A DNA stretch of 64,000 nt from an uncultured Cohaesibacter sp. Lineage in GTDB: Bacteria > Pseudomonadota > Alphaproteobacteria > Rhizobiales > Cohaesibacteraceae. The notes under the pieces are model-generated. The model made no database searches, was not told where the DNA came from, and was given only the letters and a program-made list of their open reading frames with translations. The position numbers and the translations under genes were made by a program. The DNA is taken from NCBI RefSeq assembly GCF_963666525.1, contig NZ_OY762905.1, positions 4,543,001 to 4,607,000 on the forward strand, written 5' to 3'. Each line of letters starts with the position of its first letter. The first letter of the stretch is position 1. Shown one piece after another: positions 17,297 through 44,218 of this stretch.

Positions 17297-17346
17297 TAGG
17301 AATGAATTGAAGATAGTTATTCAATATAATGTCCATTTCATTCCTA
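17297..17346. promoter_or_regulatory. Inverted repeat in promoter region of redox genes
   Basis: TAGGAATGAA (17297-17306) and TTCATTCCTA (17337-17346) are perfect inverted 10-mers 30 bp apart. Between them is a TATAAT (17325-17330). This fits a two-site operator for the upstream LysR or another dimeric regulator. The binding protein is inferred. Confidence 0.5.
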
Positions 17347-17433
17347 GAAAGAAAAGTCCATATTCACTTCAGACGAAACAAGCCGCCTTCCAAACCAGAA
17401 AACAGACGGCAACAAAAACAAGGAGTGAATACA

Positions 17434-22559: not shown

Positions 22560-22736
22560 GAACTTGCCTGTCTGGTTAGTCTGTGCGGGTAGTGTAGTTA
22601 TTTTTCGATCACAAGAACTTTAGTGTTGGGCCTGTAGATAAACGCTTCCATGCACAAAGTTGCCTGCATCAATTTTTGACTTTTCTTGTTCGTTTTTTGA
22701 GCAGTTGCACCAATATTTTGCAAACACTCAAAAAGC

Positions 22737-22773
22737 TGACCGATCGTGCAGAAAAAATATTGACCGATCGTGC
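22737..22773. repeat. Tandem 13-bp direct repeat, candidate RutR-type operator
   Basis: TGACCGATCGTGC occurs at 22737-22749 and 22761-22773, a 24 bp period. Each copy contains the palindrome CGATCG and begins with TGACC, which is also found in the known RutR operator (TTGACCAnnTGGTCAA). It lies between the divergent repressor and mmsA. Binding is inferred. Confidence 0.5.
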
Positions 22774-22909
22774 GGATAATGCAAGCGTTCTTACCACGAA
22801 AGAGGCGTTTGGCAAAAAAAATCGCAAAATAAAATGCACCGCCAAACCGCACTCGGCAAATGGCACCCAAGGGGAACACGGGGCGCAAACAGAGGCGAGG
22901 GGAAACGTG

Positions 22910-24400
22910 ATGTATCACGTCAACAATATCATCAAGGGAAAAAAGGTCGCTTCGGTTTCCGGGCGCACATCGGCAATTTTCAACCCGGCAACCGGCGAAC
23001 AGATTGCGACGCTGGGCCTGTCGAGCGATGCCGAAGTCAATGCAGCGGTTGCTGCGGCGAAGGCAGCTTTGCCCGGCTGGGCGGCCACGCCTCCAGCGAG
23101 GCGGGCCCGTGTCATGTTTGCCTTTCAGGCGCTGGTGCGCGAAAGGGCAGACGACATTGCCCGCGAGATCAGCCGTGAACATGGCAAGACCCATGATGAT
23201 GCCCTGGGCGAAGTGGCCCGCGCCCTTGAAGTGATCGAGTTTGCCTGTGGTGCCCCGCATCTTCTGAAGGGCGAGTTCTCTCGCAACGTCGGCACTGGTA
23301 TCGACACCCATTCGGAGCGTCAGCCGCTTGGTGTCGTGGCGGGTATTACCCCCTTCAACTTCCCGGCCATGGTGCCGATGTGGATGTTCCCCATGGCGAT
23401 TGCCTGTGGCAACACCTTCGTGCTGAAGCCTTCCGAACGGGATCCGTCCGCTGCCAACTTCGTTTGCGAATTGCTGGTGGAAGCCGGTTTGCCAGAAGGC
23501 GTGATTAACGTGGTGCATGGCGACAAGAGTGCCGTTGACTGCCTGCTCGATCATCCCGATGTCAAGGCCGTTAGCTTTGTCGGCTCGACCCCGATTGCCG
23601 AATATGTCTACCGCCGTGGCACCGACAGTGCCAAGCGAGTGCAGGCTCTGGGCGGAGCCAAGAACCACATGATCATCATGCCCGATGCCGACATGGATCA
23701 GGCCGCCGACGCCCTGATGGGTGCCGCTTTCGGCTCGGCCGGTGAGCGGTGCATGGCCGTGTCGGTCGCTGTTCCCATCGGAGAGGAAGCCGCAACGCGA
23801 CTCATCTCCAGCCTCAAGCCAAAGGTAGAGGCCCTGAGGATCGGCCCTTCAAGTGACGAAACCGCCGAGATGGGTCCCGTCATCACCGCAGACGCCAAGA
23901 AGCGCATTGTCGGGCTGATCGACAGTGGCGTTGAGCAGGGCGCGGATCTGGTGGTTGACGGTCGCGCCTTTGCCCTGCAGGGCTACGAGGGAGGCTATTT
24001 TGTCGGCGGCACCCTGTTTGACAAGGTGACCCCGGAAATGGACATCTACAAGACCGAAATTTTCGGGCCGGTGCTGTCTGTCATGGCACCTCAGAGTTTC
24101 GAGAGCGCGGTCGAGCTGATCAATGTTCACGAATATGGCAACGGGACCGCGATCTTCACGCGCAATGGCGACGCTGCCCGCAAATTCTCCAGCCAGATCG
24201 AGGTCGGTATGGTCGGCATCAACGTGCCCATTCCGGTGCCCGTGGCCTTCCATTCCTTCGGCGGCTGGAAACGCTCAAGTTTCGGCTCTCACGGTATCTA
24301 TGGGCCGGAAGCCATCCATTTCTATACCAAATTGAAGACCACCACGACGCGCTGGCCCGAGGGACTGTCCGAGGGCGCTGTGTTTACCTTCCCGAGCTAG
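22910..24400 (+). CDS. mmsA: CoA-acylating (methyl)malonate-semialdehyde dehydrogenase
   Basis: 496 aa aldehyde dehydrogenase. C281 in GSAGERCMAVSVAV is the catalytic cysteine. TPFNFPAMVPMWMFPMAIACGNT and FVGSTPIAEYVYRRGT are MmsA signatures. The enzyme converts malonate semialdehyde (from beta-alanine) or methylmalonate semialdehyde to acetyl- or propionyl-CoA. Here it starts the pyrimidine catabolic gene run, so malonate semialdehyde is the likely substrate. ATG 22910 (GCGAGGGGAAACGTG upstream) gives the normal family N-terminus; 78 upstream open codons cover the operator region and are unlikely to be translated. Confidence 0.93.
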   Translation: MYHVNNIIKGKKVASVSGRTSAIFNPATGEQIATLGLSSDAEVNAAVAAAKAALPGWAATPPARRARVMFAFQALVRERADDIAREISREHGKTHDDALGEVARALEVIEFACGAPHLLKGEFSRNVGTGIDTHSERQPLGVVAGITPFNFPAMVPMWMFPMAIACGNTFVLKPSERDPSAANFVCELLVEAGLPEGVINVVHGDKSAVDCLLDHPDVKAVSFVGSTPIAEYVYRRGTDSAKRVQALGGAKNHMIIMPDADMDQAADALMGAAFGSAGERCMAVSVAVPIGEEAATRLISSLKPKVEALRIGPSSDETAEMGPVITADAKKRIVGLIDSGVEQGADLVVDGRAFALQGYEGGYFVGGTLFDKVTPEMDIYKTEIFGPVLSVMAPQSFESAVELINVHEYGNGTAIFTRNGDAARKFSSQIEVGMVGINVPIPVPVAFHSFGGWKRSSFGSHGIYGPEAIHFYTKLKTTTTRWPEGLSEGAVFTFPS

Positions 24401-24526
24401 GGGAGCGACGGGGCCTTGCGCGCCTGGTGTGAAGAATGAATTTCGGCACTGACAGACCGGAAAACCGGCGGGTGCACTTCCAGAATAGCCCTTTGGGCAA
24501 ATGACCTATGACAGGGGAACCGGATC

Positions 24527-25768
24527 ATGAAGAAGAATCTGCGAGTGGATGGAGACCGTCTTTGGCAGTCTCTGATGGACATGGCAAAAATCGGACCGGG
24601 TGTTGCCGGTGGCAACAATCGTCAAACCCTGACCGATGAGGACGCCGAGGGGCGTGCGCTGTTCCAGAAATGGTGCGAAGAAGCTGGTCTTACCATGGGT
24701 GTCGACAAGATGGGCTCCATGTTCATGACCCGTCCGGGAACCGATCCCGATGCGTTGCCGGTCTATGTCGGCTCACACCTTGATACCCAGCCAACCGGCG
24801 GCAAATATGACGGCGTGCTCGGGGTGCTGTCTGCGCTGGAACTGGTGCGCATGCTCAACGATGCCGACATCAAGACCAAACACCCGATTGTCGTGACCAA
24901 CTGGGCCAACGAAGAGGGCGGGCGCTTCTCGCCGCCGATGCTGGCATCCGGTGTCTTTGCCGGGGTGCATTCGCTCGACTATGCCTATGGCCGCAAGGAT
25001 CTGGAAGGCAAGACCTATGGTGACGAGCTGAAACGCATCAACTGGGTTGGGGACGAAGAGGTTGGCGCGCGCAAGATGCACGCCTATTTCGAATATCACA
25101 TCGAGCAGGGTCCGATCCTTGAAGCCGAAAACAAGGAAATCGGCGTCGTAACCCATTGTCAGGGTCTGTGGTGGCTGGAATTCACCCTGACCGGCAAGGA
25201 AGCCCATACTGGCTCCACCCCGATGGCCATGCGCGTCAACGCTGGTCTGGCCATGGCCCGCATCTTCGAAATGGTGCAGGACGTGACCATGGCAGCCCAG
25301 CCGAACGCAGTTGGTGGTGTCGGTCAGGTGACCTTCTCGCCGAACTCGCGCAACGTACTGCCCGGAACGGTGGTCTTCACGGTAGATATCCGCACCGTTG
25401 ACATCGAAAAACTCAACGGCATGCGCGATGCCATCAAGGAAAAGGCTGCTGTCATTTGTGAAGAGCTGGGCGTCGGCTGCTCGGTGGAGCAGGTCGGCCA
25501 GTTCGATCCGGTGACCTTCGATCCGACGCTTGTCGAGCGGGTCCGTAACGCCGCCATCGATCTTGGCTACTCGCACATGGATATCGTCTCCGGTGCTGGC
25601 CATGACGCATGCTGGGCCGCAAAGGTCGCTCCCACGACCATGATCATGTGTCCGTGCGTCGATGGCCTCTCGCACAATGAAGCCGAGGAAATTTCCAAGG
25701 AGTGGGCTACAGCAGGGGCAGACGTGCTGCTGCAGGCGGTTCTGGAAACGGCCGAGATCGTCGAGTAG
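24527..25768 (+). CDS. N-carbamoyl-beta-alanine amidase (M20 Zn-dependent hydrolase)
   Basis: 413 aa of the allantoate amidohydrolase/N-carbamoyl-amino-acid hydrolase family. Metal-site motifs are SHLDTQPTGGKYDG, NEEGGRF, HIEQGP and GAGHDA. The dimerisation domain carries GKEAHTGSTPM. It hydrolyses N-carbamoyl-beta-alanine to beta-alanine, CO2 and ammonia in reductive pyrimidine breakdown. Direct linkage to dihydropyrimidinase and mmsA supports that substrate over allantoate. Start after AGGGGAACCGGATC. Confidence 0.9.
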   Translation: MKKNLRVDGDRLWQSLMDMAKIGPGVAGGNNRQTLTDEDAEGRALFQKWCEEAGLTMGVDKMGSMFMTRPGTDPDALPVYVGSHLDTQPTGGKYDGVLGVLSALELVRMLNDADIKTKHPIVVTNWANEEGGRFSPPMLASGVFAGVHSLDYAYGRKDLEGKTYGDELKRINWVGDEEVGARKMHAYFEYHIEQGPILEAENKEIGVVTHCQGLWWLEFTLTGKEAHTGSTPMAMRVNAGLAMARIFEMVQDVTMAAQPNAVGGVGQVTFSPNSRNVLPGTVVFTVDIRTVDIEKLNGMRDAIKEKAAVICEELGVGCSVEQVGQFDPVTFDPTLVERVRNAAIDLGYSHMDIVSGAGHDACWAAKVAPTTMIMCPCVDGLSHNEAEEISKEWATAGADVLLQAVLETAEIVE

Positions 25769-26014
25769 CGATCAGGACAAGACGCCGAACGGCGACAAGA
25801 CAAGGGGCACGGATACCCGATCCAAGAACAGGGCACAAAGCCCGATGGTATCCGGCCCGGCAATTACCAGACAAGACAAACACTCCGCCAGAGGCACCCG
25901 CTACTTGTCGGAGTTCAAGACACCAAGGCAAGAGGCTGATCGTTCGCTTACCGGGAACGCCCGAACTGTGTCCGGTGCCCGCTTCTTGGCATGAAACTTG
26001 AAGGGAACAGCAAC

Positions 26015-27469
26015 ATGAGCAAAGTGATTAAGGGTGGTACTGTTGTCACCGCCGATCTGACTTATGAAGCCGATGTGAAAATCGAGGACGGTGTCATCAC
26101 CGAAATCGGCCCCGATCTCTCCGGCGATGAAATTCTGGACGCCACCGGCTGCTATGTCATGCCGGGTGGTATCGATCCCCATGTGCATCTGGAAATGCCT
26201 TTCATGGGCACCTATTCGGCAGATGACTTTTCTTCAGGCACCCGCGCTGCGGTGGCGGGCGGTACGACGATGGTCGTCGACTTCTGTCTGCCCGATCCCG
26301 GTCAGAGCCTGATGGACGCTCTGATGCGTTGGGACAACAAGTCGACCCGCGCCACCTGCGACTATTCCTTCCACATGGCAATCACCTGGTGGGACAAGCA
26401 GGTGTTCGAGGAAATGGAAACTGTCGTTCGCGAGAAGGGCATCAACACCTTCAAGCATTTCCTCGCCTACAAGGGCTCGTTGATGGTCAACGACGATGAG
26501 CTGTTTGCCTCCTTCCAGCGCTGTGCCGAACTGGGTGCCATGCCACTTGTTCACGCAGAGAATGGCGACGTGGTAGCTTCCATGTCTGCAAGGCTGCTGT
26601 CCGAGGGCAACACCGGTCCGGAGGCGCACGCCTATTCCCGCCCGCCCGAAGTGGAAGGGGAAGCCACCAACCGTGCCATCATGCTGGCCGATATGGCAGG
26701 CGTGCCGCTCTATGTGGTCCATACCTCCTGCGAACAGGCCCACGAGGCCATCCGTCGTGCCCGACAGAAGGGCATGCGCGTCTATGGTGAGCCGCTGATC
26801 CAGCATCTGACCCTTGATGAAAGCGAGTATTTCGACAAGGACTGGGATCACGCCGCCCGCCGCGTCATGAGCCCGCCATTCCGCAACAAGATGCATCAGG
26901 ACAGCCTCTGGGCAGGTCTTCAGGCTGGTTCGCTTTCCTGTGTGGCGACTGACCATTGCGCCTTCACGACCGACCAGAAACGCTATGGCGTTGGTGATTT
27001 CACCAAGATCCCGAACGGCACCGGCGGTCTAGAAGACCGTCTGCCGATGCTCTGGACCTATGGCGTCGGTACTGGCCGGTTGACGATGAACGAGTTCGTG
27101 GCGGTCACCTCCACCAACATTGCCAAGATCCTCAACATGTACCCGAAGAAGGGGGCCATCCTCGTCGGAGCAGACGCCGATATCGTTGTCTGGGATCCGA
27201 AGCTGAAGAAGACCATTTCCGCAGCAACCCAGGTCTCGTCCATCGATTACAGCGTCTTCGAGGGCAAGGAAGTCACGGGGCTGCCGCGCTTCACTCTGTC
27301 TCGCGGCAAGGTCGTGGTCGAGGAAAGCACCCTGAAGACCGAAGAAGGGCACGGCCAGTTCGTGGCGCGCAAGCCTTATGGCGCGGTCAACAAGGCACTG
27401 TCCACCTGGAAGGAACTGGTCTCACCACGTCCGATCGTCCGCGCCGGCATCCCGCCGAGTGGTGTCTGA
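26015..27469 (+). CDS. hydA: Dihydropyrimidinase (D-hydantoinase)
   Basis: 484 aa amidohydrolase. GGIDPHVHLEMPF supplies the metal HxH, FLAYKGSLMV contains the lysine carboxylated to bridge the two zincs, and later metal histidines sit in PLVHAENGD and YVVHTSCEQ, with the active-site aspartate in ATDHCAF. It opens dihydrouracil or hydantoin rings. ATG 26015 follows GAAGGGAACAGCAAC; an ATG eight codons upstream at 25991 is possible. The 246 bp before it contain no supportable gene. Confidence 0.92.
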   Translation: MSKVIKGGTVVTADLTYEADVKIEDGVITEIGPDLSGDEILDATGCYVMPGGIDPHVHLEMPFMGTYSADDFSSGTRAAVAGGTTMVVDFCLPDPGQSLMDALMRWDNKSTRATCDYSFHMAITWWDKQVFEEMETVVREKGINTFKHFLAYKGSLMVNDDELFASFQRCAELGAMPLVHAENGDVVASMSARLLSEGNTGPEAHAYSRPPEVEGEATNRAIMLADMAGVPLYVVHTSCEQAHEAIRRARQKGMRVYGEPLIQHLTLDESEYFDKDWDHAARRVMSPPFRNKMHQDSLWAGLQAGSLSCVATDHCAFTTDQKRYGVGDFTKIPNGTGGLEDRLPMLWTYGVGTGRLTMNEFVAVTSTNIAKILNMYPKKGAILVGADADIVVWDPKLKKTISAATQVSSIDYSVFEGKEVTGLPRFTLSRGKVVVEESTLKTEEGHGQFVARKPYGAVNKALSTWKELVSPRPIVRAGIPPSGV

Positions 27470-27573
27470 TCGGCTCGTGGGCCGACCGACCAATCACGAT
27501 TTCCCTGCGGGTGCACGGCGCATCCGCAGGAACCGAATGACCAAACAGGCAATCCGAACGGGAACAAGCAAAG

Positions 27574-28374
27574 ATGATGCACTCCGACTTCCATGTGGTC
27601 TCAGCCAAGGACCTCTGTCTGACGTTTCAGACCAATGATGGGCCGGTCCATGCGCTCAAGGATGTCAACCTTCAGATCAACAAGGGCGACTTTGTCAGCT
27701 TCATCGGTCCGTCCGGCTGTGGCAAGACGACCTTTCTGCGCGCCATCGCTGCCTTGGAAAACCCCACATCGGGCGAGTTGATGGTCAATGGAACCACGCC
27801 AGAACTGGCGCGAAAGGATCGTGCCTATGGCTATGTCTTTCAGGCTGCTGGGCTCTATCCTTGGCGGACCATTGCCCGGAACATCAAGCTGCCACTGGAG
27901 ATCATGGGCTTTACCAAGGCCGAGCAGAAGGAGCGTGTCGAACGGGTGCTCAAGCTGGTGGATCTGGAAGGCTTTGGCAACAAGTTTCCATGGCAGCTGT
28001 CGGGCGGCATGCAGCAAAGAGCGTCGATTGCCCGGGCCCTGTCGTTCGATGCCGATATCCTGCTGATGGACGAGCCCTTCGGAGCGCTTGACGAGATCGT
28101 CCGCGATCACCTCAACGAACAGCTTTTGAAACTCTGGTCCAGCACCGGCAAGACCATCGGCTTCGTCACCCATTCCATCCCCGAAGCGGTCTATCTCTCC
28201 ACCAAGATTGTGGTCATGAGCCCGCGTCCGGGCCGCATCACTGATGTGATCGAGAGCACACTGCCAAAGGAACGACCGCTGTCCATTCGTGACAGTCAGG
28301 AATTCATCGATATCGCCCATCGCGTCCGCGAGGGCCTGAGGGCCGGCCATGGCGATGGAGCGGACGATGCGTAA
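27574..28374 (+). CDS. ABC transporter ATPase (NitT/TauT type, pyrimidine-linked)
   Basis: 266 aa single nucleotide-binding domain: Walker A GPSGCGKTT near residue 47, Q-loop VFQAAGLYPW, signature LSGGMQQR and Walker B ILLMDEPFGALDE. It resembles SsuB/TauB/ThiZ ATPases. It is the first of four transporter genes downstream of dihydropyrimidinase and overlaps the first permease gene by 26 bp. Two ATGs in tandem (27574, 27577) could start it. Likely substrate is a pyrimidine or its dihydro or hydantoin form, by context. Confidence 0.9.
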   Translation: MMHSDFHVVSAKDLCLTFQTNDGPVHALKDVNLQINKGDFVSFIGPSGCGKTTFLRAIAALENPTSGELMVNGTTPELARKDRAYGYVFQAAGLYPWRTIARNIKLPLEIMGFTKAEQKERVERVLKLVDLEGFGNKFPWQLSGGMQQRASIARALSFDADILLMDEPFGALDEIVRDHLNEQLLKLWSSTGKTIGFVTHSIPEAVYLSTKIVVMSPRPGRITDVIESTLPKERPLSIRDSQEFIDIAHRVREGLRAGHGDGADDA

Positions 28375-29230
28375 GCTCTTTGCCGTTTGCACGGTCGTGC
28401 TGGTGATCGTGGTGCTCTGGTATGGCGCTGCTGTCAAAATGAATGCCAAGTGGGCCTATGATCAGGCCGCCCGCGCCAAGGTGGAGCTGTCCTTCTCCGA
28501 TCTGGTCAGGGACACCTGGGCACAGGAGCGTCCTGTTCTGCCTGCACCGCATCAGGTGGCTGCGGAACTGTGGGACAGCACGGTGATGAAGAAGGTCAAT
28601 TCCAAGCGCTCGCTGATCTTTCACGGCTGGATCACGCTTGAGGCGACCCTGCTGGGCTTCGTGGTCGGCACACTGCTCGGAATCGTGCTGTCTGTCGGTA
28701 TCATCTATATCCGCGCGATGGACATGAGCGTCATGCCATGGGCCATTGCTTCCCAGACGATTCCCATTCTGGCAATTGCGCCAATGATCATCGTGGTCTT
28801 GAACTCGGTCGGCATCCAGGGGCTGATCCCCAAGGCGATCATCTCGGCCTATTTGAGCTTCTTCCCTGTTCTGGTCGGCATGGTAAAGGGGCTGAGGGCT
28901 CCCGATCACATGCAGCTGGATCTGCTCAAAACCTACAACGCCTCCAGAAGCGACGCCTTCTACAAGTTGCGTCTGCCGTCCTCCGTGCCCTATCTCTTCA
29001 CTTCGATGAAAGTGGGCATTGCCGCCTCGCTCGTCGGCACCATCGTTGGCGAGTTGCCAACCGGTGCCATTCGCGGGTTGGGCGCCCGGCTGCTGACCGG
29101 TTCCTACTATGGCCAGACGATCCAGATGTGGGCCGCTCTCTTTGCCGCCGCCCTGCTGGCCGCAGGCCTCGTGGCGCTCGTGGGACTTGCCGAGAAATCG
29201 GTTCTGAAGAAAATGGGGATGGTACGATGA
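28349..29230 (+). CDS. ABC transporter permease 1 (NitT/TauT type)
   Basis: 293 aa inner-membrane protein. An N-terminal transmembrane segment (LFAVCTVVLVIVVLWYGAAV) is followed by a periplasmic stretch and about five more helices. The EAA-type loop sits around SRSDAFYKLRLPSSVPYLFTSMKVG. It overlaps the ATPase gene upstream and the second permease downstream (ATGA at 29227). ATG 28367, with GGAG 6 nt upstream, is an alternative start that removes six residues. Confidence 0.88.
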   Translation: MAMERTMRKLFAVCTVVLVIVVLWYGAAVKMNAKWAYDQAARAKVELSFSDLVRDTWAQERPVLPAPHQVAAELWDSTVMKKVNSKRSLIFHGWITLEATLLGFVVGTLLGIVLSVGIIYIRAMDMSVMPWAIASQTIPILAIAPMIIVVLNSVGIQGLIPKAIISAYLSFFPVLVGMVKGLRAPDHMQLDLLKTYNASRSDAFYKLRLPSSVPYLFTSMKVGIAASLVGTIVGELPTGAIRGLGARLLTGSYYGQTIQMWAALFAAALLAAGLVALVGLAEKSVLKKMGMVR

Positions 29231-30072
29231 CCCTTGTTCTTGCTGCACTTGTCATCTGGATTGTGGCCTCATGGGTCAACGTCAAACTCTCCCGGTCGAA
29301 GGCCCACAACACGCTGCTGGTGCGCTTTCTGGTGCCATTCATTTTCGGGGTGACGATCCTGGTGGCCTGGGAGCTGCTGGTGCGCGGGCTGGATATTCCC
29401 GGCGTCATCCTGCCGCCGCCGTCCGCAATCGCAACGCGGTTCGCCGCGTCCACCGACATTCTCTGGCTCGACTTCCTGCAGACCTTCGCCAAAGGGGCGC
29501 TCAGCGGCTACATCATCGGCTGTGGTGCGGCCTTTCTGACGGCGATCCTCATCGACCGCGTACCATTCCTGCAACTGGGTCTGCTGCCGGTTGGCAACTT
29601 TGTCGCCGCGCTGCCCATCGTCGGCATCGCCCCGATCCTCGTGATGTGGTTCGGTTTCGACTGGCAGTCCAAGGCCGCCGTTGTCGTGGTGATGGTCTTC
29701 TTCCCGATGCTGGTCAACTGCGTGCAGGGCCTGGCCGACACGGATCACATGCAGCGTGATCTCATGAAGACCTATGCGGCGAGCTATACCGACACTCTGC
29801 TCAAGTTGCGGTTGCCTGCCGCGATGCCGTTCATTTTCAACGGGCTCAAAATTTCAACCACTTCGGCGCTGATCGGCGCGATCGTTGCCGAGTTCTTCGG
29901 CTCTCCCATCGTCGGCATGGGCTTCCGCATCTCCACCGAGGTCGGCAAGCTTGGACTCGACATGGTCTGGGCGGAAATCACGGTTGCGGCTATCGCAGGC
30001 TCCCTGTTTTACGGGGTAGTGGCCGCAATCGAAAAGGGGGTGACCTTCTGGCACCCCTCACAAAGGGGCTAG
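29227..30072 (+). CDS. ABC transporter permease 2 (NitT/TauT type)
   Basis: 281 aa inner-membrane protein paralogous to the preceding permease. It shows an N-terminal helix (LVLAALVIWIVASWV), a second (VPFIFGVTILVAWELL) and the EAA-type loop SYTDTLLKLRLPAAMPFIFNGLK. Two different permeases imply a heterodimeric pore. The start overlaps the previous stop by 4 bp; longer open frame upstream runs through permease 1 and is not used. Confidence 0.9.
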   Translation: MTLVLAALVIWIVASWVNVKLSRSKAHNTLLVRFLVPFIFGVTILVAWELLVRGLDIPGVILPPPSAIATRFAASTDILWLDFLQTFAKGALSGYIIGCGAAFLTAILIDRVPFLQLGLLPVGNFVAALPIVGIAPILVMWFGFDWQSKAAVVVVMVFFPMLVNCVQGLADTDHMQRDLMKTYAASYTDTLLKLRLPAAMPFIFNGLKISTTSALIGAIVAEFFGSPIVGMGFRISTEVGKLGLDMVWAEITVAAIAGSLFYGVVAAIEKGVTFWHPSQRG

Positions 30073-30152
30073 AAGACCCCATTCAATAACCAAAAGAAAA
30101 CAAAGCAACACCTTAACCATACTCCTTTACGGACTACCAAAGGGAATAGAAG

Positions 30153-31154
30153 ATGAGAGACACATTCAAGAAAATTGCGATTGGCGCATGTGCAGCTGCC
30201 TCGATCTTTGCAGCCACCGGAGCCAATGCGGCAGATGACTTTACCCTTCAGCTGAAATGGGTGACGCAGGCCCAGTTCGCCGGCTATTATGTTGCTCTGG
30301 AAAAGGGCTATTACGAGGCTGAAGACCTCAATGTCACCATCAAGCCGGGCGGTCCGGATATTGCTCCGACCCAGATTCTGGCCGGTGGTGGCGCTGATGT
30401 GGTTGTCGACTGGATGCCTTCGGCACTGGCTGCCCGTGAAAAGGGCCTGCCGCTCGTCAACATTGCCCAGCCTTACAAATCCTCGGGCATGATGCTGACG
30501 TGCCTCAAGGAAAGCGGCGTCAAGTCGCCTGAAGACTTCCCCGGCAAGACCCTTGGTGTCTGGTTCTTCGGCAACGAATATCCGTTCCTGAGCTGGATGA
30601 GCATTCTCGGTATTCCGACCGAAGGCGGCGACAAGGGCGTGACCGTCCTCAAGCAGGGCTTCAACGTTGATCCGCTGCTTCAGAAGCAGGCTGCCTGCAT
30701 CTCCACCATGACCTACAACGAATATTGGCAGGTCATCGACGCCGGTATCTCTGCCGACGATCTGATCACCTTCAAATATGAAGATCAGGGCGTGGCTACG
30801 CTGGAAGACGGCCTCTATGTGCTGGAAGACAAGCTGGCTGACGAGAAAGAAGTCGACAAGCTGGTCCGCTTCGTCCGTGCGTCCATGAAAGGCTGGAAAT
30901 ATGCTGAAGCCAACCCGGATGAAGCCGCAGATATCGTGCTTGAATATGACGAAACCGGTGCCCAGACCGAAAAGCACCAGAAGCGCATGATGGCCGAAGT
31001 GGCAAAGCTGACCGCCGGTTCCAATGGCGCTCTGGATACGGCCGACTATGAGCGTACCGTCAAGACGCTGATGAGTGGCGGTTCCGCTCCGGTCATTTCC
31101 AAGGCCCCTGAAGGTGCCTGGACCCACAAGATCACCGATCTGGCCCTGAAATAG
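30153..31154 (+). CDS. ABC substrate-binding protein, NMT1/THI5-like
   Basis: 333 aa. Signal peptide MRDTFKKIAIGACAAASIFA with cleavage likely after ANA (about residue 26). The mature protein begins ADDFTLQLKWVTQAQFAGYYVALEKGYY, the NMT1/ThiY hallmark for binding pyrimidine-like ligands. No lipobox cysteine, so it is a free periplasmic protein. Its pyrimidine-type fold together with the catabolic genes supports import of uracil, thymine or related rings. A hairpin follows at 31169-31196. Confidence 0.9.
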   Translation: MRDTFKKIAIGACAAASIFAATGANAADDFTLQLKWVTQAQFAGYYVALEKGYYEAEDLNVTIKPGGPDIAPTQILAGGGADVVVDWMPSALAAREKGLPLVNIAQPYKSSGMMLTCLKESGVKSPEDFPGKTLGVWFFGNEYPFLSWMSILGIPTEGGDKGVTVLKQGFNVDPLLQKQAACISTMTYNEYWQVIDAGISADDLITFKYEDQGVATLEDGLYVLEDKLADEKEVDKLVRFVRASMKGWKYAEANPDEAADIVLEYDETGAQTEKHQKRMMAEVAKLTAGSNGALDTADYERTVKTLMSGGSAPVISKAPEGAWTHKITDLALK

Positions 31155-31168
31155 GCCCGTCCCATTCT

Positions 31169-31196
31169 CCGCCTCCGGACATTGTGCCGGGGGCGG
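31169..31196 (+). other. GC-rich hairpin between ABC genes and cofG
   Basis: CCGCCTCCGG (31169-31178) pairs with CCGGGGGCGG (31187-31196) with one G-T pair around an 8 nt loop. No T-run follows, so it is likely an mRNA 3' stabiliser or partial terminator between the transporter and the F420 genes. Confidence 0.5.
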
Positions 31197-31398
31197 GATG
31201 ACGACCCTGGCCCGCCGGCCCGTTCGGCGGAGCCAACCCCGAGGTAACCGAACAATTCAAGGAAATGTCTTGCCCCGCGCAAACTCCGTTTGGCGCGAAC
31301 AGGGTTCCTTTGCGCCGATTTCCCGTTGGGAATGCCATCAAATGCGCAAACGACAGCCCCGAATGGCAGATGGTTTCACAACGGCTAAAGGCAACAGG

Positions 31399-32610
31399 AT
31401 GCTGGTAGAAAGCGAACTCAACAGTCGATCCGCCGACGTCATGTCGGATAGCGCTGCACGCTTGCCGTCCGGGGCGCGGGAGCTCAACGATCAGGCCCGC
31501 CATCTGCAGAAGGCGGATCTGGCAGGCCTGATGGCGCGGGCAAGCGTCATCCGCGATGCCCGTTGGGGCCGCACCGTGACCTATTCGCGCAAGGCCTTCG
31601 TGCCACTGACCAACATGTGCCGCGATACCTGCGCCTATTGCACCTTCGTCAAGCACCCCGATCACCCGGACGCCAACATCATGTCGCCCGATCAGGTTCT
31701 TGCCACTGCCCGCAAGGGCGAGGCTCAGGGCTGCAAGGAACTGCTGTTCAGCCTCGGTGAAAAGCCCGAACTGCGCTATGAGCGGGCAAGGGCCGCGTTG
31801 GCTTTGCTTGGCTATCACAGCATGACGGACTATCTGGCCGACATGTGCGCGCTGGTGCTCGAAGAAACCACCATGCTGCCCCATGTCAACGCGGGCACCC
31901 TCAGTGACGAGGAGTTTGCAAGGCTCCGCCCGGTTTCGGTTTCCATGGGCATGATGCTCGAAACCATCTCCCGCCGCCTGACCGGCAAAGGGGAGGCCCA
32001 CCATGCCTGTCCGGACAAGGTGCCTTTGCAGCGATTGCGGACGCTGGAACGGGCAGGGGAGCACAAGGTCCCATTCACCACCGGCCTGCTGATCGGCATA
32101 GGCGAAACGTGGCAAGAGCGGATCGAGGCCCTCCACGCCATCAATGACAGCCATAAGCGCCACGGTCACATTCAGGAAGTCATCATCCAGAACTTCCAGA
32201 CCAAGCCTGATATCGCCATGGCCAACCATCCAGAGCCGAGCCTCGAGGACATGCTTCGCACCATCGCGGCCGCGCGCATCATCCTTGCCCCGGAGATCAG
32301 CCTGCAGGCTCCGCCCAATCTCAGTGCCCGCCATATCGCCTATCTCGATGCGGGTATCAATGACTGGGGCGGAATTTCTCCGGTTACCATCGATTTCATC
32401 AACCCCCAGCATGCCTGGCCGCAGATTGATGCGCTTGCGGCGAGCTGTGACAAGGCTGGCTTTTCGCTCAGGGAACGACTGCCCGTCTATCCGGCCTATC
32501 TTCGGTCGGAAACCGAATTTCTGAGCCCTCAGCTACAAGGCCGCGTTGCCCGTATGTCGGCCAGCAACGGCCTCGCCAGCGAACAGCGCCACTTGACGCA
32601 AGGAGAATGA
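31399..32610 (+). CDS. cofG: CofG subunit of FO synthase (radical SAM)
   Basis: 403 aa from ATG 31399. The radical-SAM motif is C74-x3-C78-x2-C81 (NMCRDTCAYCTF). With CofH it forms the deazaflavin FO, the chromophore of coenzyme F420, from tyrosine and a ribityl-uracil. FSLGEKPELRYERAR and HGHIQEVIIQNFQTKP are family segments. Earlier in-frame starts (31342, 31363) exist; 31399 has AAAGGCAACAGG but is not certain. CofG and CofH are separate here, as in archaea and cyanobacteria, not fused as actinobacterial FbiC. Confidence 0.93.
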   Translation: MLVESELNSRSADVMSDSAARLPSGARELNDQARHLQKADLAGLMARASVIRDARWGRTVTYSRKAFVPLTNMCRDTCAYCTFVKHPDHPDANIMSPDQVLATARKGEAQGCKELLFSLGEKPELRYERARAALALLGYHSMTDYLADMCALVLEETTMLPHVNAGTLSDEEFARLRPVSVSMGMMLETISRRLTGKGEAHHACPDKVPLQRLRTLERAGEHKVPFTTGLLIGIGETWQERIEALHAINDSHKRHGHIQEVIIQNFQTKPDIAMANHPEPSLEDMLRTIAAARIILAPEISLQAPPNLSARHIAYLDAGINDWGGISPVTIDFINPQHAWPQIDALAASCDKAGFSLRERLPVYPAYLRSETEFLSPQLQGRVARMSASNGLASEQRHLTQGE

Positions 32611-32615
32611 TTATC

Positions 32616-33893
32616 ATGTCCAATGAAACAGAATCAGCATTCGGTAATGCCCTTGCTTTTGACGCTCGGAACGCCACCGCTCCTGTTCGGAAAATTCTCG
32701 ACAGGGCGCTTGAGGATCGCGAGATTTCACAAGCGGAGGCCGTGCTGCTGTTCAAGGCCGAAGCGCCCGCCGACTTGCAGACGATCTACCATGTCGCCGA
32801 CCTGCTGCGCCAGCGGGCCAACGGGGATCTGGTGACCTTCACGGTCAACCGCAACATCAACTTCACCAATGTCTGCTATATGGGCTGCAAATTCTGCAAT
32901 TTCGCCAAGCGGGCCGAAGAGGAGGATGCTCATTGGCATTCTGTGGGCGAGGTGCTGCGCCGTTGCCACGAGGCATGGGACCGGGGCGCAACCGAGGTAT
33001 GCATTCAGGGCGGGCTGCACCCCAAGCTGCCCGGCAGTTACTATGAGGAGCTTTGCCGCGCCATCAAGGCGGAGTTGCCCGACATGCACTTGCACGCCTT
33101 CTCACCTTTCGAGGTATGGTACGGTGCGTCCAAGACGCGGAAGTCGTACCGTGATTTCCTGCAAGGCCTAAAGGACGCCGGTCTGGGCACAATGCCGGGA
33201 ACGGCCGCCGAAATCCTCGACACCGACATACGCAAGCAACTGACCAAGGACAAGCTTAGCACGGAGAAATGGGTCGAGATCATCCGCACCGCCCATGAGG
33301 TGGGAATCCGGACCACAGCGACCATTATGTATGGCCATATCGATGCGCCGGAGCATTGGGCCGCTCACATTGACCTGCTGCGCTCGATCCAGAAGGACAC
33401 CGGCGGCTTTACCGAATTTGTGCCGCTGTCCTATCAGCATGTCGGCACGGCGCTTTATGCGGAAAATCCGGGCAAGGTGCGCAAGGGGCCGAGCACCGAT
33501 GAAATCGACAAGATGCATGCCGTCTCCCGCATCATGCTCCATGGGCTGATCGACAATATCCAGGTTTCCTGGACCAAGCTTGGCCCTGACCATGCGATGG
33601 CGATGCTCAATCGCGGTGCCAACGATCTGGGCGGCACGCTGATGGAAGAAAGCATCTCCCGCTCGGCGGGGGCGGATCATGGGCAGGAGATCACGGCCTA
33701 TGAACTGACACAGATCGTCCGTGCCTCGGGCCGCATGCCTGCGCGCCGGTCGAGCGACTATCGCATTCTCGACATCTATGATGACCATGATCCGCAGCCG
33801 CTTGCGCCTTTGATCGACCGGGGCGGCAAGGATCCGCTCGACTTTCTCAAGATGTTCCCGGCCACCTCTGCCAAGCTGGAGGCCGCTGAATGA
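32616..33893 (+). CDS. cofH: CofH subunit of FO synthase (radical SAM)
   Basis: 425 aa. The radical-SAM motif is C87-x3-C91-x2-C94 (NVCYMGCKFCNF). CIQGGLHPKLPGSYYEELCRAIK and HAFSPFEVWYGA are typical of CofH, which joins tyrosine-derived radical chemistry to 5-amino-6-ribitylamino-uracil. ATG 32616 is 10 nt after AAGGAG; the ATG at 32607 is too close to that site. It starts 5 bp after cofG and overlaps cofD by 4 bp. Confidence 0.95.
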   Translation: MSNETESAFGNALAFDARNATAPVRKILDRALEDREISQAEAVLLFKAEAPADLQTIYHVADLLRQRANGDLVTFTVNRNINFTNVCYMGCKFCNFAKRAEEEDAHWHSVGEVLRRCHEAWDRGATEVCIQGGLHPKLPGSYYEELCRAIKAELPDMHLHAFSPFEVWYGASKTRKSYRDFLQGLKDAGLGTMPGTAAEILDTDIRKQLTKDKLSTEKWVEIIRTAHEVGIRTTATIMYGHIDAPEHWAAHIDLLRSIQKDTGGFTEFVPLSYQHVGTALYAENPGKVRKGPSTDEIDKMHAVSRIMLHGLIDNIQVSWTKLGPDHAMAMLNRGANDLGGTLMEESISRSAGADHGQEITAYELTQIVRASGRMPARRSSDYRILDIYDDHDPQPLAPLIDRGGKDPLDFLKMFPATSAKLEAAE

Positions 33894-34870
33894 GCGAAAC
33901 ACAGAAGCTGAAGGTTACCCTGCTGGCCGGCGGGGTTGGCGGCGCAAAGATGGCCGAAGGCCTCGCTGCGCTAGGAGATGTAGAGCTGACGATCATCGGC
34001 AATATCGCCGATGATGACGACTTCCACGGCCTTTGGGTGTCGCCGGATATCGATACCATGACCTACACCCTGTCTGGCCGCATCAACCGTCAGCAGGGCT
34101 GGGGGCTGGCCGACGAGGGCACCCGTGCGCTCGATATCCTGACGACCCTTGGGCAGGACACATGGATGATGCTCGGGGACAAGGATTTCGGCCTCCACAT
34201 CTATCGCACCATGCGGCGGACGAAAGGTGATCGTCCCACAGACATAGCAGCCGATGTTGCTACGGCCTTTGGTGTCAAACCGCGCATTCTTTTGCCGACC
34301 GATGATCGGGTGCAGACCCGGGTCAAGACGGAAAAGGGCTGGTTGAGTTTTCAGGAATATTTTGTGCGCGAGAAATGTGCCCCCACCGTTGAGGCGCTTG
34401 AGCTCAAGGGCATAGAGGACGCCGCGGCAACCCCGGAAGCGCTTGCGGCCATAGCCAGCGCCGACCTGCTCGTCATCGCCCCGTCCAATCCACTGGTCAG
34501 CATTGAGCCGATCCTTGCCGCCAAGGGCATCCGTGATGAGGTGAAAGAGGCTTGCGTGCCAAGAATCGCTGTCAGCCCGCTGATTGCCGGCAAGGTCGTC
34601 AAGGGACCTGCCGACAGGATGATGACGGCGCTCGGCATGCGCGCCGATGCCGTTGGCGTGGCCGCGCACTATGTCGGGTTGATCGATGCCTTGCTGATCG
34701 ATCATCAGGACAGCGCGCTCGCCGAGGAGATCGCCAGACTGTCGATCCGGCCCCATTGCGACGACATCTTGATGAAGGACGCTGAAGACAAGGCGCGGCT
34801 GGCCCGTGCTGTTGTCGATCTTGGTCTGGCGCTTGCAGCAGACAAAGACCAAAACGGAGCTGCTGCATGA
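33890..34870 (+). CDS. cofD: CofD, 2-phospho-L-lactate (or analogue) transferase
   Basis: 326 aa. It transfers the phospho-lactyl type group onto FO to give F420-0 or its dehydro form. The LLAGGVGGAKMAEGLAAL N-terminus is the family's nucleotide-binding loop; NIADDDDFHGLWVSPDIDT and SNPLVSIEPILA are further hallmarks. ATGA overlaps link it to cofH and cofC. The native donor substrate (2-phospholactate, PEP or 3-phosphoglycerate type) cannot be predicted by eye. Confidence 0.95.
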   Translation: MSETQKLKVTLLAGGVGGAKMAEGLAALGDVELTIIGNIADDDDFHGLWVSPDIDTMTYTLSGRINRQQGWGLADEGTRALDILTTLGQDTWMMLGDKDFGLHIYRTMRRTKGDRPTDIAADVATAFGVKPRILLPTDDRVQTRVKTEKGWLSFQEYFVREKCAPTVEALELKGIEDAAATPEALAAIASADLLVIAPSNPLVSIEPILAAKGIRDEVKEACVPRIAVSPLIAGKVVKGPADRMMTALGMRADAVGVAAHYVGLIDALLIDHQDSALAEEIARLSIRPHCDDILMKDAEDKARLARAVVDLGLALAADKDQNGAAA

Positions 34871-35529
34871 CTGACAAGCTGCTGATCCTCATCCCGATGA
34901 AAGACCCGTCCCGGGCGAAATCGCGGCTGGCATCCGGCCTTTCGGAAGGCGAACGGTCGACCCTCTCGCTGATGCTGTTCAAGGCTGTGGTCGAACGGAT
35001 CAAAACCGCCCTTGCGAGCGCTGACCATTTGAAGACCCAGATCGACGTGATTGATATTGCGGTGGTTTCTTCCAGTGAGGTCATCCGGCAAGTGGCCGGG
35101 GAGCTGGACATTCTCTTTCTGCAGGAAGCTGGAGACAGTGGCCTCAATGATGCCTTGCAGGCTGCCTCTGAATGCGCCCTGAAGCAGGGCTATGGACGAC
35201 TCTGCATCCTGCCGGGAGATCTGGCCGATCCAACGGCGCAGGATATCGTCAGCCTGTTGTCCTATCCGCTTGATGCCCGGACAATCATTGTCTGCCCGTC
35301 TGAGGATCTGGGCACCAATGCCCTTGTCGTGCCACTGCCCAGCCCGATGCCATTTTCCTTCGGTCCGGACTCTTTTTCGCGGCACTTCAGTCAGGCCGCC
35401 GATCTGGGGTTGATGCCGGTCATTCTGCCGCTCAAGAGCCTGCGTCGCGATATCGATACGATGGCCGATTTGAGCTATCTCGATGCAGCCCAGACGGCAG
35501 TGATCGCCAAAGGCGGAGAGGGCGCGTAA
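34867..35529 (+). CDS. cofC: CofC, 2-phospho-L-lactate guanylyltransferase
   Basis: 220 aa. It activates the phospho-acid with GTP for CofD. The nucleotidyltransferase N-terminus is LLILIPMKDPSRAKSRLASGLS, followed by RLCILPGDLADPTAQDI and an FGPDSFSRHF segment that corresponds to the substrate loop. It overlaps cofD by 4 bp and shares a TAATG junction with cofE. It is a stand-alone enzyme. Confidence 0.92.
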   Translation: MTDKLLILIPMKDPSRAKSRLASGLSEGERSTLSLMLFKAVVERIKTALASADHLKTQIDVIDIAVVSSSEVIRQVAGELDILFLQEAGDSGLNDALQAASECALKQGYGRLCILPGDLADPTAQDIVSLLSYPLDARTIIVCPSEDLGTNALVVPLPSPMPFSFGPDSFSRHFSQAADLGLMPVILPLKSLRRDIDTMADLSYLDAAQTAVIAKGGEGA

Positions 35530-36299
35530 TGACCAGTCTGATGATCACGGCCATTCCCGGCGTTCCCGATATCGAGGCGGGCGATGACCTTGCCGCCATT
35601 CTTGGCGATTGTCTGGTAGCGAGCGGCAATGCGCCTGTCGAGGGCGATATCCTCTGCGTGGCTCAGAAGGTCTTCTCCAAGGCCGAGGGCTGCATCTACC
35701 CCCTTGCCAGCATCACGCCGTCAGCAGAAGCACTGCGTTATGCCGAAGAGCTGGGCAAGGATGCGCGCAAGGTCGAGATCGTGCTGAGGGAAAGCGTCGA
35801 GGTTGTGCGAGCCTTCCGCCATCCCGGTCAGAATGAGGGGACAATGATTTGCCGCCACCGGCTGGGGTTCATCTCGGCCAATGCTGCGGTTGATGAATCC
35901 AACATCGCGGAAACCGACGCCGCCATGACATTGCCACCGGACCCTGACGCCAGCGTTCGCGCCATGCGCGAGGCGCTCGAAACGCGGTTCGGCTGCCGCA
36001 TCGGCGTGGTGATGACCGATACCTTCGGCAGGCCCTGGCGTATTGCTCAGGTCAACGTGGCCATCGGACTTGCCGGGGTGCCAGCCACCATCCGCGAGCA
36101 AGGCAATCAGGACGCCTGGGGGCGCACCATGAAGGTGACCGAAGCCGCCTTCGCCGATGAACTGGCTGCCGCCTCCGGACTGGTGGTCAAGAAGGCAGCC
36201 AAAACACCCCTCGTGCTGTTTCGCGGGCTCGACTGGAGCCTTACCGAAAGTCGGGCAGGAGATCTGTTGAGAGGAAAACAAGAGGACATGTTCAAATGA
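35529..36299 (+). CDS. cofE: CofE, F420-0:gamma-glutamyl ligase
   Basis: 256 aa. It adds glutamate residues to F420-0 using [41 protein letters not shown] and [21 protein letters not shown] are CofE motifs. The protein ends after the CofE domain and lacks the nitroreductase-like C-terminal domain of actinobacterial FbiB, so the dehydro-F420 reduction route of actinobacteria is not evident here. It overlaps npdG by 4 bp. Confidence 0.95.
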
Positions 36300-36964
36300 C
36301 GATCGCAATCATTGGCGGCACAGGACCGCAAGGACAGGGGCTTGCGCTGAGATTTGCCCATGCCGGTGTGCCGGTCGCCCTCGGCTCACGGGATGCAACG
36401 CGCGCCGCCGAAATCGGGGTGGCGTTGCGGCAGCAGCTGGCGGACGACTGCGCCCCGATCACCGGCGTTGCCAACGAAGAGGCCGTGCGGATGGCCGACG
36501 AGATTGTTATTCTCGCGGTGCCCTTTGCGGGCCACAACGCAACGCTCAATGCGCTCAAGCCATATCTTGAGGGCAAGATTCTCGTCGATATCGTCGTACC
36601 CCTGAAGGAGGGCGACCCCAAGAAGGTGGAAATGCCACCGGAGGGCTCGGCAACGGAAGCTGCGCAAGCGCTGCTCGGGCCGGATATCCCCGTTGTCGGG
36701 GCGCTTCACAATGTCTCTGCAACCACGTTGAAGACCCTCGAATGGGACATCAATTGTGACATTCTGGTCTGTGGCAACTCGCTGGCAGCCCGTAAGACCG
36801 TCATGGATCTCATCGGGAAACTCGGGGTCACCGCCTACAATGCCGGCGACGCAGAAGCGGCTCGCTGCATCGAGGCCATCACCCCCATTCTCATTCGCAT
36901 CAACATATCCAAACAGGTGCCGTTCACCCACGCCGGGTTGAAGATCTGGGCACCAGATCACTGA
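36296..36964 (+). CDS. npdG: NADPH:F420 oxidoreductase
   Basis: 222 aa. The N-terminal Rossmann motif is [22 protein letters not shown], and the downstream [11 protein letters not shown] carries the arginine that favours NADPH. VALHNVSA-like sequence ([26 protein letters not shown]) and the C-terminal ITPILIRIN are typical of Fno/NpdG, which exchanges hydride between NADPH and F420. It overlaps cofE by 4 bp and precedes the LLM-class enzyme, so it probably supplies F420H2 to it. Confidence 0.92.
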
Positions 36965-37035
36965 TCCAAGTGACCGACAAACGATCACCACCTGAGCAAC
37001 CGAAAAGACTTGAAGAACAAGGACAGGAGAGAGAG

Positions 37036-38040
37036 ATGGAATTCGCTATTTGCTTTAAGGGCTTTGTTGAGCCCAAACGCGCCCGCGCCCTTGTGCGACA
37101 GGCCGAAAATGCTGGCTTCACCTATTGCTGGTTCTATGACAGCCACATTCTTTGGCGGGAAAGCTACATGGCTATGGCCATGTGCATGGAACATACCACC
37201 CAAATGCGCTTTGGCCCTTGTGTGACCAACCCGAACACGCGCGACTGGTCGCTGGCTGCCTCAATGTTCGGCTCGCTGGCCAAGCAGTCCGAAGGGCGCT
37301 TTGACATCGGCCTTGGCCGTGGCGACAGCGCGGTGCGGGTCATGGGCCTCAAGCCGGCGCCACTAAAACGTCTGGAAGAATTCACTCACGTGGTCAAGGC
37401 ACTGGTGCGTGGCGACGAGGCCCAGTATGGCGAATGCCCCGAGCCGGTGAAATTTCCTTGGGCTGAGGGCTATGAGCTGCCGGTCTGGGTGGCCGCCTAT
37501 GGTCCCAAGGCGTTGAGTTCTGCGGGACGTGTCGGCGATGGCCTCATCCTTCAGATTGCCGAACCGAGCATCGTCAAGTGGCTCGCCAGCACTGCCATTG
37601 AAGAGGGCAAGAAGGCAGGCCGTGACATGTCCCACTACAAGGTCATGTCGGCTGCGCCAGCCTATTTTGGCACCAGGGAAGAATGCATTGCCGCAACGCG
37701 CTGGTTCCCGGCCATGGTAGGTAACCATGTAGCTGACATCGTTGAGAAATACGGCACCGAGCGGGACGATATCCCACCTGCGCTGACCGCCTATATCAAG
37801 GATCGCAAGGGCTACGACTATTCCAAACACGGCCAGAGCGACAATCCGTATCTTGATTTCATTACCGATGAAATCATTGAGGGCTTCAGCGTACTGGGGC
37901 CGGCAGAGCAGCAGGTTGCCAAACTCAACGTCCTCAAGGATGCCGGTGTCACCCAGTTCAACATCTATCTGGACAATGGCAAGGAAGAACAGATCATTGC
38001 CGAATATGGCGAAAAGATCATTCCGGCTTTCACAGCCTGA
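37036..38040 (+). CDS. LLM-class F420-dependent oxidoreductase (TIGR03842-like)
   Basis: 334 aa luciferase-like TIM-barrel protein. It begins MEFAICFKGFVEPKRARALV. FYDSHILWRESYMAM, GPCVTNPNTRDWSLAASMFGSLA and DIGLGRGDSAVRVMGLKP are typical LLM segments near the deazaflavin pocket. I believe it matches the CPS_4081/TIGR03842 group, which often lies near hydantoinase genes. ATG 37036 follows GGACAGGAGAGAG; 22 upstream codons are probably untranslated. It ends the F420/pyrimidine run before a strong terminator. RutA, another pyrimidine enzyme, belongs to the same superfamily but uses FMN. I infer an F420H2-dependent step on a pyrimidine or hydantoin; the reaction is unproven. Confidence 0.85.
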   Translation: MEFAICFKGFVEPKRARALVRQAENAGFTYCWFYDSHILWRESYMAMAMCMEHTTQMRFGPCVTNPNTRDWSLAASMFGSLAKQSEGRFDIGLGRGDSAVRVMGLKPAPLKRLEEFTHVVKALVRGDEAQYGECPEPVKFPWAEGYELPVWVAAYGPKALSSAGRVGDGLILQIAEPSIVKWLASTAIEEGKKAGRDMSHYKVMSAAPAYFGTREECIAATRWFPAMVGNHVADIVEKYGTERDDIPPALTAYIKDRKGYDYSKHGQSDNPYLDFITDEIIEGFSVLGPAEQQVAKLNVLKDAGVTQFNIYLDNGKEEQIIAEYGEKIIPAFTA

Positions 38041-38089
38041 AACCAATCATCAACGCGGACTGGTTCGGTAAGAGCTGGTTAAACTTGAT

Positions 38090-38123
38090 GGGGCGGATCC
38101 TTCTGATCCTGCCCCGTTTTTTT
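38090..38123 (+). terminator. Rho-independent terminator after the F420/pyrimidine genes
   Basis: GGGGCGGATC (38090-38099) pairs with GATCCTGCCCC (38105-38115) with one bulged T, followed by GTTTTTTT. It ends the rightward unit 50 bp after the LLM gene and just before the convergent thiolase gene. Confidence 0.85.
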
Positions 38124-40723: not shown

Positions 40724-40752
40724 GATTGCTCTCTCCAAATAGTCCTGCTCGC

Positions 40753-44198: not shown

Positions 44199-44218
44199 GG
44201 AATGATCCTTCGACAGGC

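Follow-up and report, generated by a model that had tools for sequence, protein, structure and literature searches.

A putative F420H2-dependent first step in a reductive pyrimidine gene cluster of Cohaesibacter

Which enzyme reduces the pyrimidine ring when a gene cluster for reductive pyrimidine breakdown carries no gene for the usual dihydropyrimidine dehydrogenase, a type of enzyme with which people clear 5-fluorouracil? The question is raised by a stretch of 64,000 nucleotides from an uncultured Cohaesibacter sp. (contig NZ_OY762905.1, positions 4,543,001 to 4,607,000; hereafter "the window"), where genes for pyrimidine catabolism and for the synthesis of coenzyme F420 form one run that ends with the gene of an LLM-class (luciferase-like) oxidoreductase, the LLM enzyme. 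On comparative sequence evidence, we consider it likely that the run is a reductive pyrimidine module whose first step would fall not to PreTA or PydA but to a hydride transferase of luciferase fold that depends on F420H2. An F420-type stand-in appears to have replaced the usual iron-sulphur (Fe-S) flavin enzyme.

The gene run and the search for a uracil reductase

The initial annotation had named the genes of the run, their order and their position on a single strand ahead of a strong terminator, and Pfam and curated NCBIfam profiles agree with it on every gene of the run. All genes of the run are on the + strand (scores are given in bits, cut-offs after the slash). It begins with mmsA, encoding (methyl)malonate-semialdehyde dehydrogenase (22910-24400; TIGR01722, 693/448.5), a HyuC-type amidase gene (24527-25768; NF006769, 677/452; TIGR01879, 384/204) and the dihydropyrimidinase gene (25991-27469; TIGR02033, 605/393). 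The amidase lies above the cut-off of the hydantoinase/carbamoylase family, membership of which does not fix the substrate; its predicted role is that of N-carbamoyl-beta-alanine amidase. An ATP-binding cassette (ABC) transporter follows, with an ATPase (27574-28374; PF00005), two permeases (28349-29230 and 29227-30072; PF00528, matched for the second on the longer open reading frame 28738-30072) and an NMT1-type substrate-binding protein (30153-31154; PF09084, 136). The F420 genes are cofG (31198-32610; TIGR03550, 463/213), cofH (32607-33893; TIGR03551, 485/374), cofD (33890-34870; TIGR01819, 278/257), cofC (34867-35529; TIGR03552, 123/105) and cofE (35529-36299; TIGR01916, 224/181). They are followed by npdG (fno) for NADPH:F420 oxidoreductase (36296-36964; TIGR01915, 188/150) and by the gene of the LLM enzyme, the proposed uracil/thymine reductase (37036-38040; TIGR03842, 494.5/295). 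Because about 95 N-terminal residues of CofG fall outside the profile, the true start of cofG may be further in. The LLM gene probably starts at ATG 37036 rather than at GTG 36970, since the profile begins at residue 24 of the longer open reading frame and the stretch GGAGAGAGAG lies 5' of the ATG.

An intrinsic terminator (38087-38122, + strand) closes the run; its hairpin folds with -20.3 kcal/mol (z = -5.1, with none of 200 shuffles as stable) and is followed by a U-tract. It is real by folding, though not listed by a simple promoter/terminator consensus scan, which performed no better than on shuffled sequence. Near the 5' end of the run the genes are separated by gaps of 126, 222 and 104 bp, which leaves co-transcription as a single operon a prediction. 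A TetR regulator gene (21933-22559, - strand) diverges from mmsA. The initial annotation had called it RutR-like, and its presence and orientation are as described; RutR is its best family, with scores below the cut-offs (TIGR03613, 194/368; NF011584, 168/230), so "RutR-like" is as far as the name can go.

The families identified in the cluster include no dihydropyrimidine dehydrogenase, in keeping with the initial annotation, which had also called for a search for preA and pydA in the full genome. That genome is complete (one contig, 5,175,666 bp), and the PreA and dihydroorotate dehydrogenase (DHODH; PF01180, DHO_dh) models found in it no uracil reductase of the PydA/PreA kind that belongs to the reductive (Pyd) pathway. 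The PreA model scores highest on a PyrDB-like gene, with 132 bits where its cut-off is 335. PF01180 matches two proteins strongly, a quinone-dependent PyrD (TIGR01036, 359 bits) and the PyrDB-like protein, which adjoins a PyrK-like one; one further match is weak and below the cut-off. A second dihydropyrimidinase is encoded at 1.37 Mb beside polyamine-type ABC genes, and none of the proteins encoded there (it and five of the surrounding open reading frames were scanned) is a uracil reductase by family. PF00296 matches two proteins in the complete genome, the LLM enzyme of the cluster, which shares 99% identity with its Cohaesibacter haloalkalitolerans counterpart, and one member of another family (TIGR03571).

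The PyrK-like and PyrDB-like genes stand in a row with a HyuC-type gene (5047515-5051990 of the genome; 7516-11991 of locus L007). Beside this row, as far as position 17007 of the locus, are genes for an ABC transporter of the NMT1/Ssu type and for a protein that resembles uridine phosphorylase with a score below the cut-off. The row possibly serves orotate or another pyrimidine-type reductive pathway.

Neighbourhoods, PreA and operators in related genomes

Among 84,980 species genomes scanned, 393 stretches encode relatives of the LLM enzyme, and the best 80 were fetched (L008-L087). Contig ends or the limit of the 10-kb flank clip many of these loci, and in L008-L010 the flank limit also leaves most of the dihydropyrimidinase gene out of view; the following counts are to be read with this in mind: CofD is seen in 67 of the 80 loci, dihydropyrimidinase or HyuC in 36 (29 with cofD, 7 without it), and neither CofD nor dihydropyrimidinase/HyuC in 6. 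The genes come in several orders. L027 has a divergent RutR gene followed by cofGHDCE-npdG-LLM-HyuC-dihydropyrimidinase-ABC; L014 has dihydropyrimidinase-HyuC divergent from cof-npdG-LLM; Cohaesibacter celericrescens (L010 = G389) has dihydropyrimidinase-ABC-cof-npdG-LLM; and L030 has LLM-HyuC-dihydropyrimidinase-ABC, with cofD of that genome on another contig. The link of LLM to HyuC and dihydropyrimidinase is independent of the cof genes, since in five loci (L030, L035, L054, L063 and L087) LLM lies beside HyuC/dihydropyrimidinase with no cofD in the 10 kb upstream; L051 and L069 have the same appearance as the L030 type, with upstream DNA that ends early. Two genomes from another class, each a single contig (G695 and G882), have RutR-cofGHDCE-npdG-LLM with mmsA nearby and no PreA. 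Of the other-class loci, L104 also has HyuC (44%) and dihydropyrimidinase (52%), and L105 has neither in the fetched DNA.

For comparison, five PreA neighbourhoods of classical clusters were examined (L088-L092). All five combine preT, preA, RutR, HyuC and dihydropyrimidinase, and in four of them ABC genes of the window's kind follow (none were detected in L090). The shared proteins are close relatives of those in the window: HyuC is 68-70% and dihydropyrimidinase 63-79% identical in all five, and in the four with a transporter the identities are 78-83% for the ATPase, 54-66% for permease 1, 70-72% for permease 2 and 73-79% for the binding protein. On this comparison the two kinds of cluster differ in the slot of the first-step enzyme.

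If the LLM enzyme takes this slot, PreA should tend to be missing where it occurs. A class-wide sample of 387 genomes held only 8 LLM enzymes over the cut-off, too few for an exclusion test, and a sample from one family was therefore used; only matches over the cut-off were counted, as TIGR03842 at the default E-value also matches other LLM proteins (158 of the 387 genomes). The dihydropyrimidinase, PreA and LLM models were run on 140 genomes of the Paracoccus denitrificans family (requested completeness at least 95%), centred on G415, which had been chosen because it bears LLM. Dihydropyrimidinase is encoded in 131 of the 140 genomes, PreA over the cut-off in 122 (plus 2 weaker) and LLM in 6. 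All six LLM genomes have dihydropyrimidinase, and PreA is absent from five of them (G415, G429, G431, G471, G547) and present in G411. Among the 125 dihydropyrimidinase-bearing genomes without LLM, PreA is over the cut-off in 120, weak in 2 (G446, G536) and absent from 3 (G520, G555, G561). The nine genomes without dihydropyrimidinase have no LLM, and one of them has PreA (G495, split over contig ends). Fisher's test of LLM against PreA gives p = 1.1e-6, or 4.9e-6 if the weak matches are taken as lacking and 1.5e-5 without the centre genome; these values overstate the independence of the genomes, which are related.

Among LLM genomes in general, PreA is over the cut-off in 16 of 58 of a first set and 1 of 31 of a second. 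Taken together they amount to 82 distinct genomes, after removal from the 58 of the repeats G403 (= G310) and G433 (= G243) and the paralogue genomes G164, G244 and G372, and from the 31 of G000 and G942 (= L025, with coordinates identical to G371). The 82 cover 76 of the 80 loci L008-L087, with L042, L049, L069 and L072 falling outside the PreA count. Absence of PreA is weaker evidence in the single-cell or metagenome assemblies, of which the set contains some; the PreA-negative genomes among the 58 include, besides the window's own, 12 named isolates (L008, L009, L010, L014-L017, L019, L020, L039, L052 and L085). One of them is P. denitrificans DSM 413 (L052 = G415), which carries the module. 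In 59 LLM genomes, dihydropyrimidinase is present in 58 and CofD in 58 (55 over the cut-off; G414 is the only one with no CofD match); neither G433, a repeat, nor the three paralogue genomes have been removed from these rows.

The regulatory sites were examined with TTGACCAnnTGGTCAA, which we take to be the RutR operator consensus of Escherichia coli. The 95 loci (1.64 Mb) contain 18 sites with at most one mismatch, six of which are exact, compared with 0-2 (mean 0.3) when 20 sequences were simulated by a first-order Markov model; with at most two mismatches there are 54 sites against 2-10. All 18 sites are at genes of the module: 11 before cofG (in 9 loci, at a distance of 43-120 bp from where the CofG match begins), 5 between RutR and HyuC, and one each between LLM and the binding protein and between divergent LLM and cofD. 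Two of the 18 are in preTA clusters (L089, L091).

The promoter of the window has a different repeat. Two direct copies of TGACCGATCGTGC in the gap between the RutR-like gene and mmsA form a candidate operator (22735-22776, no strand assigned), with exact 13-mers starting at 22737 and 22761, 24 bp apart. No further copy exists on either strand of the window; one is found in L083, between HyuC and a RutR that is 66% identical to the window's, and none in the other 94 loci scanned. We infer that the window's regulator belongs to a RutR subfamily with a changed box. A search of the same gap for palindromes found none at the thresholds used. The E. coli consensus with up to three mismatches matches the window 13 times (chance mean 2.4), none of them in that gap.

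Fold and residues of the LLM enzyme

The family of the LLM enzyme, TIGR03842 ("F420_CPS_4043"), is classed as a hypothetical equivalog and has no assigned function; in profile and fold the enzyme has the characters of F420-dependent luciferase-like hydride transferases. An AlphaFold model built from 33 aligned sequences (mean pLDDT 87.5) was compared by Foldseek with the PDB. The top matches are entries of Mer, Fgd2, Adf and Fgd1, with Mer ranking first and F420-bound entries included (8qpl, E 1.2e-20, TM 0.80).

Mer, the closest solved structure (26% identity, TM 0.8), shares several features with the LLM enzyme. A GPxVTNP loop stands at the position of the non-prolyl cis-peptide, with Cys62-Val63 aligned to Gly61-Val62 of Mer; Asp97 is at the position of Mer Asp96, and Gln173 at the carboxamide position 178 of Mer. 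Val63, Asp97 and Gln173 are invariant in all 96 aligned LLM rows, among which the window gene is counted three times (as window, L001 and L005) and two genes of another class twice (L101/L104, L102/L105), and which include 6 paralogues. According to PMC11094777, Asp96 of Mer contacts the pyrimidine ring of the carrier, and residue 178, a carboxamide residue, is near F420 and the pterin; it is Gln178 in that paper and N in the chain aligned here. The same source describes Glu6 of Mer as the catalytic residue that protonates N10 of the one-carbon carrier, with 0.4% of kcat left in the E6Q variant (PMC11094777). At this position the LLM enzyme differs from Mer: the rows show Cys (58), Thr (35) or Ala (3) and in no case of the 96 Glu, with position 6 taken as aligned to Glu6 without a gap. 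Because Asp97 and Gln173 are kept and Glu6 is absent, the fold would still hold F420 and a pyrimidine ring but would lack the acid for the one-carbon reaction. The pattern is suggestive and falls short of proof. Binding and use of F420 by the LLM enzyme are supported only indirectly, by the presence of CofD in 58 of 59 LLM genomes.

Proposed pathway, its alternatives and known systems

We envisage the following pathway. The ABC transporter would import a pyrimidine, CofG, CofH, CofD, CofC and CofE would synthesise F420, and NpdG would reduce it with NADPH to F420H2. F420H2 would then serve the LLM enzyme as hydride donor for reduction of the 5,6 double bond in uracil, and probably in thymine, giving dihydrouracil or dihydrothymine. 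Dihydropyrimidinase and the HyuC-type amidase would be responsible for ring opening and for loss of the carbamoyl group, a transaminase encoded outside the run would yield (methyl)malonate semialdehyde, and MmsA would convert this to acetyl- or propionyl-CoA. RutR-type control would place F420 synthesis within the uracil response, and the operators suggest that the module is induced by uracil. The substrate of the LLM enzyme, its reaction and the direction of that reaction are what we infer from gene context and model.

A candidate for the missing beta-alanine transaminase is a class-III aminotransferase encoded nearby on the opposite strand (42082-43431). This gene is accompanied by genes for an ArgE/DapE-type deacylase and ABC components (39431-40738 and 43428-44875, both - strand). 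The window also encodes a second NpdG-like Rossmann protein (17329-18063, + strand; PF03807), 32% identical to NpdG of the cluster over 200 columns. Its gene has that of a LysR-type regulator on one side and that of a LigB-type protein on the other, and a glutathione transferase gene comes next.

The tested genomic expectations of the initial annotation were borne out: a complete genome with no classical enzyme found, LLM mainly where PreA is missing, conserved linkage, operators of the uracil-regulator type before cofG in nine loci, and a Mer-like F420 fold. It needs amendment in two respects. The window promoter carries the different repeat described above; and the cof genes, LLM and dihydropyrimidinase do travel together, as the proposed survey of genomes supposed, whereas the exclusion between LLM and PreA is incomplete, with 17 of the 82 LLM genomes carrying both.

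These 17 genomes and the substrate range are among the main weak points of the proposal, and several observations weigh against it. On the LLM tree the 17 are confined to two places, with 2 changes against a mean of 15.8 after shuffling (none of 500 shuffles as low). Among the 16 of them in the 58-genome set, 15 have at least two dihydropyrimidinases, as do 16 of 43 other LLM genomes. One dihydropyrimidinase lies within 12 kb of PreA in all 16, and a second within 12 kb of cofD in five (G408, G413, G420, G424, G428), so that two parallel modules are evident for these five and only possible for the rest. One LLM genome (G215) has no dihydropyrimidinase at E <= 1e-118. Operators with at most one mismatch occur at only 11 LLM loci (10 of the 80 loci L008-L087, plus L098), and the window promoter is devoid of a standard RutR box, its best site having four mismatches to the E. 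coli consensus. Finally, a distant TIGR03842 group (L093 = G372, L094 = G164, L095 = G244), 50-57% identical to the window's LLM enzyme and with up to three tandem copies, lies beside npdG, in L093 and L094 with cof genes too; the fetched DNA of these three loci has no dihydropyrimidinase or HyuC gene, and dihydropyrimidinase is encoded elsewhere in the genomes. The neighbourhoods of this group, whose members perhaps catalyze another F420 reaction, indicate that specificity for pyrimidines may not extend to all of TIGR03842. On the LLM tree, the sequence of L044, from a record titled Nocardioides marinus DP1N28-1, groups among Leisingera sequences; the record or name was probably mixed up.

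The shared genomes bear directly on the thought that the LLM enzyme reduces some other ring opened by dihydropyrimidinase and HyuC (a hydantoin-type compound, a modified pyrimidine, or thymine only), with uracil not its main substrate. Dihydropyrimidinases and HyuC amidases act on hydantoins as well, and retention of PreA beside LLM could mean that the two have different substrates. Against this, HyuC, dihydropyrimidinase and transporter are closely homologous to their preTA-cluster versions, RutR-type operators occur in both kinds of cluster, and 65 of the 82 LLM genomes would be without PreA, yet dihydropyrimidinase is kept in 58 of 59; we regard another ring as improbable. Less probable still is a passenger or side role (detoxification, for instance) for the F420 module, with uracil reduced by another protein, here the PyrK/PyrDB-like pair at 5.05 Mb. 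That pair does stand in a run with a HyuC-type gene, a phosphorylase-like protein and an ABC transporter, but a PyrDB-like match of this strength (124-142 bits; the next has 64) is found only in G000, G387, G388 and G392 of 58 genomes, C. celericrescens has its cluster without one, and one would not expect the absence of PreA to be followed by a mere passenger.

Uracil is the substrate of RutA, an enzyme of luciferase fold that opens the ring oxidatively with flavin mononucleotide (FMN) and oxygen. It provides the precedent for an LLM enzyme that uses FMN, or reduced FMN and oxygen; a further variant would be a dehydrogenase that reduces F420. This we hold to be the least likely alternative of all: the RutA profile is not among the 21 NCBIfam families that match the LLM enzyme at E <= 0.001, the nearest solved structures are F420 enzymes, NpdG is encoded no more than 150 bp upstream of LLM in 71 of the 80 loci, and dihydropyrimidinase requires a dihydropyrimidine, not a peroxy-ring product.

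For the F420H2-dependent pyrimidine reductase, a further-reaching version is, in our view, somewhat favoured: F420 would be made mainly or only for pyrimidine reduction, as a dedicated uracil-inducible part, and a dihydropyrimidine dehydrogenase free of Fe-S and flavin would descend from a pterin reductase of the Mer kind, with the pyrimidine pocket retained and the one-carbon acid lost. If true, F420 would have a defined job in such bacteria, dihydropyrimidine dehydrogenase would have been replaced by a non-homologous enzyme, and a cofactor pathway would be under catabolic control; F420 in P. denitrificans DSM 413, which has the module and no PreA, should then rise with uracil. Trace F420 has been reported in P. 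denitrificans, and among bacteria no F420 enzyme outside actinobacteria had been studied at the date of the review (PMC8498797, section 23). Our literature searches, with subscription papers and preprints outside their scope, found among the papers listed no proposal of an F420-dependent uracil reductase and no paper on TIGR03842 or on RutR together with F420; the single paper that mentions F420 as well as dihydropyrimidinase is, by its listing, a metatranscriptome study of the gut; in the accessible part of PMC6279831 the word pyrimidine does not occur.

The closest parallel in the literature is a prediction from gene neighbourhoods in uric acid clusters of Chloroflexota, where an F420 LLM enzyme is proposed in place of the YgfK/UacX-type ring reductase (PMC12507026, 2025). 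It differs from the present case in that it concerns a purine (yanthine) pathway in another phylum. The uracil reductases PydA, PreTA and ferredoxin-dependent PydAc are, according to PMC7332683, all of the DHODH family with Fe-S and FMN and differ by electron donor (NADPH, NADH or ferredoxin). The window's module resembles the Pyd pathway with PydA or PreTA in having dihydropyrimidinase, HyuC-type amidase, transporter and RutR-like regulator of the same kinds, and would yield the same product. It differs in the reductase: the candidate is of the F420 type, is not homologous to PydA or PreTA and has no Fe-S domains.

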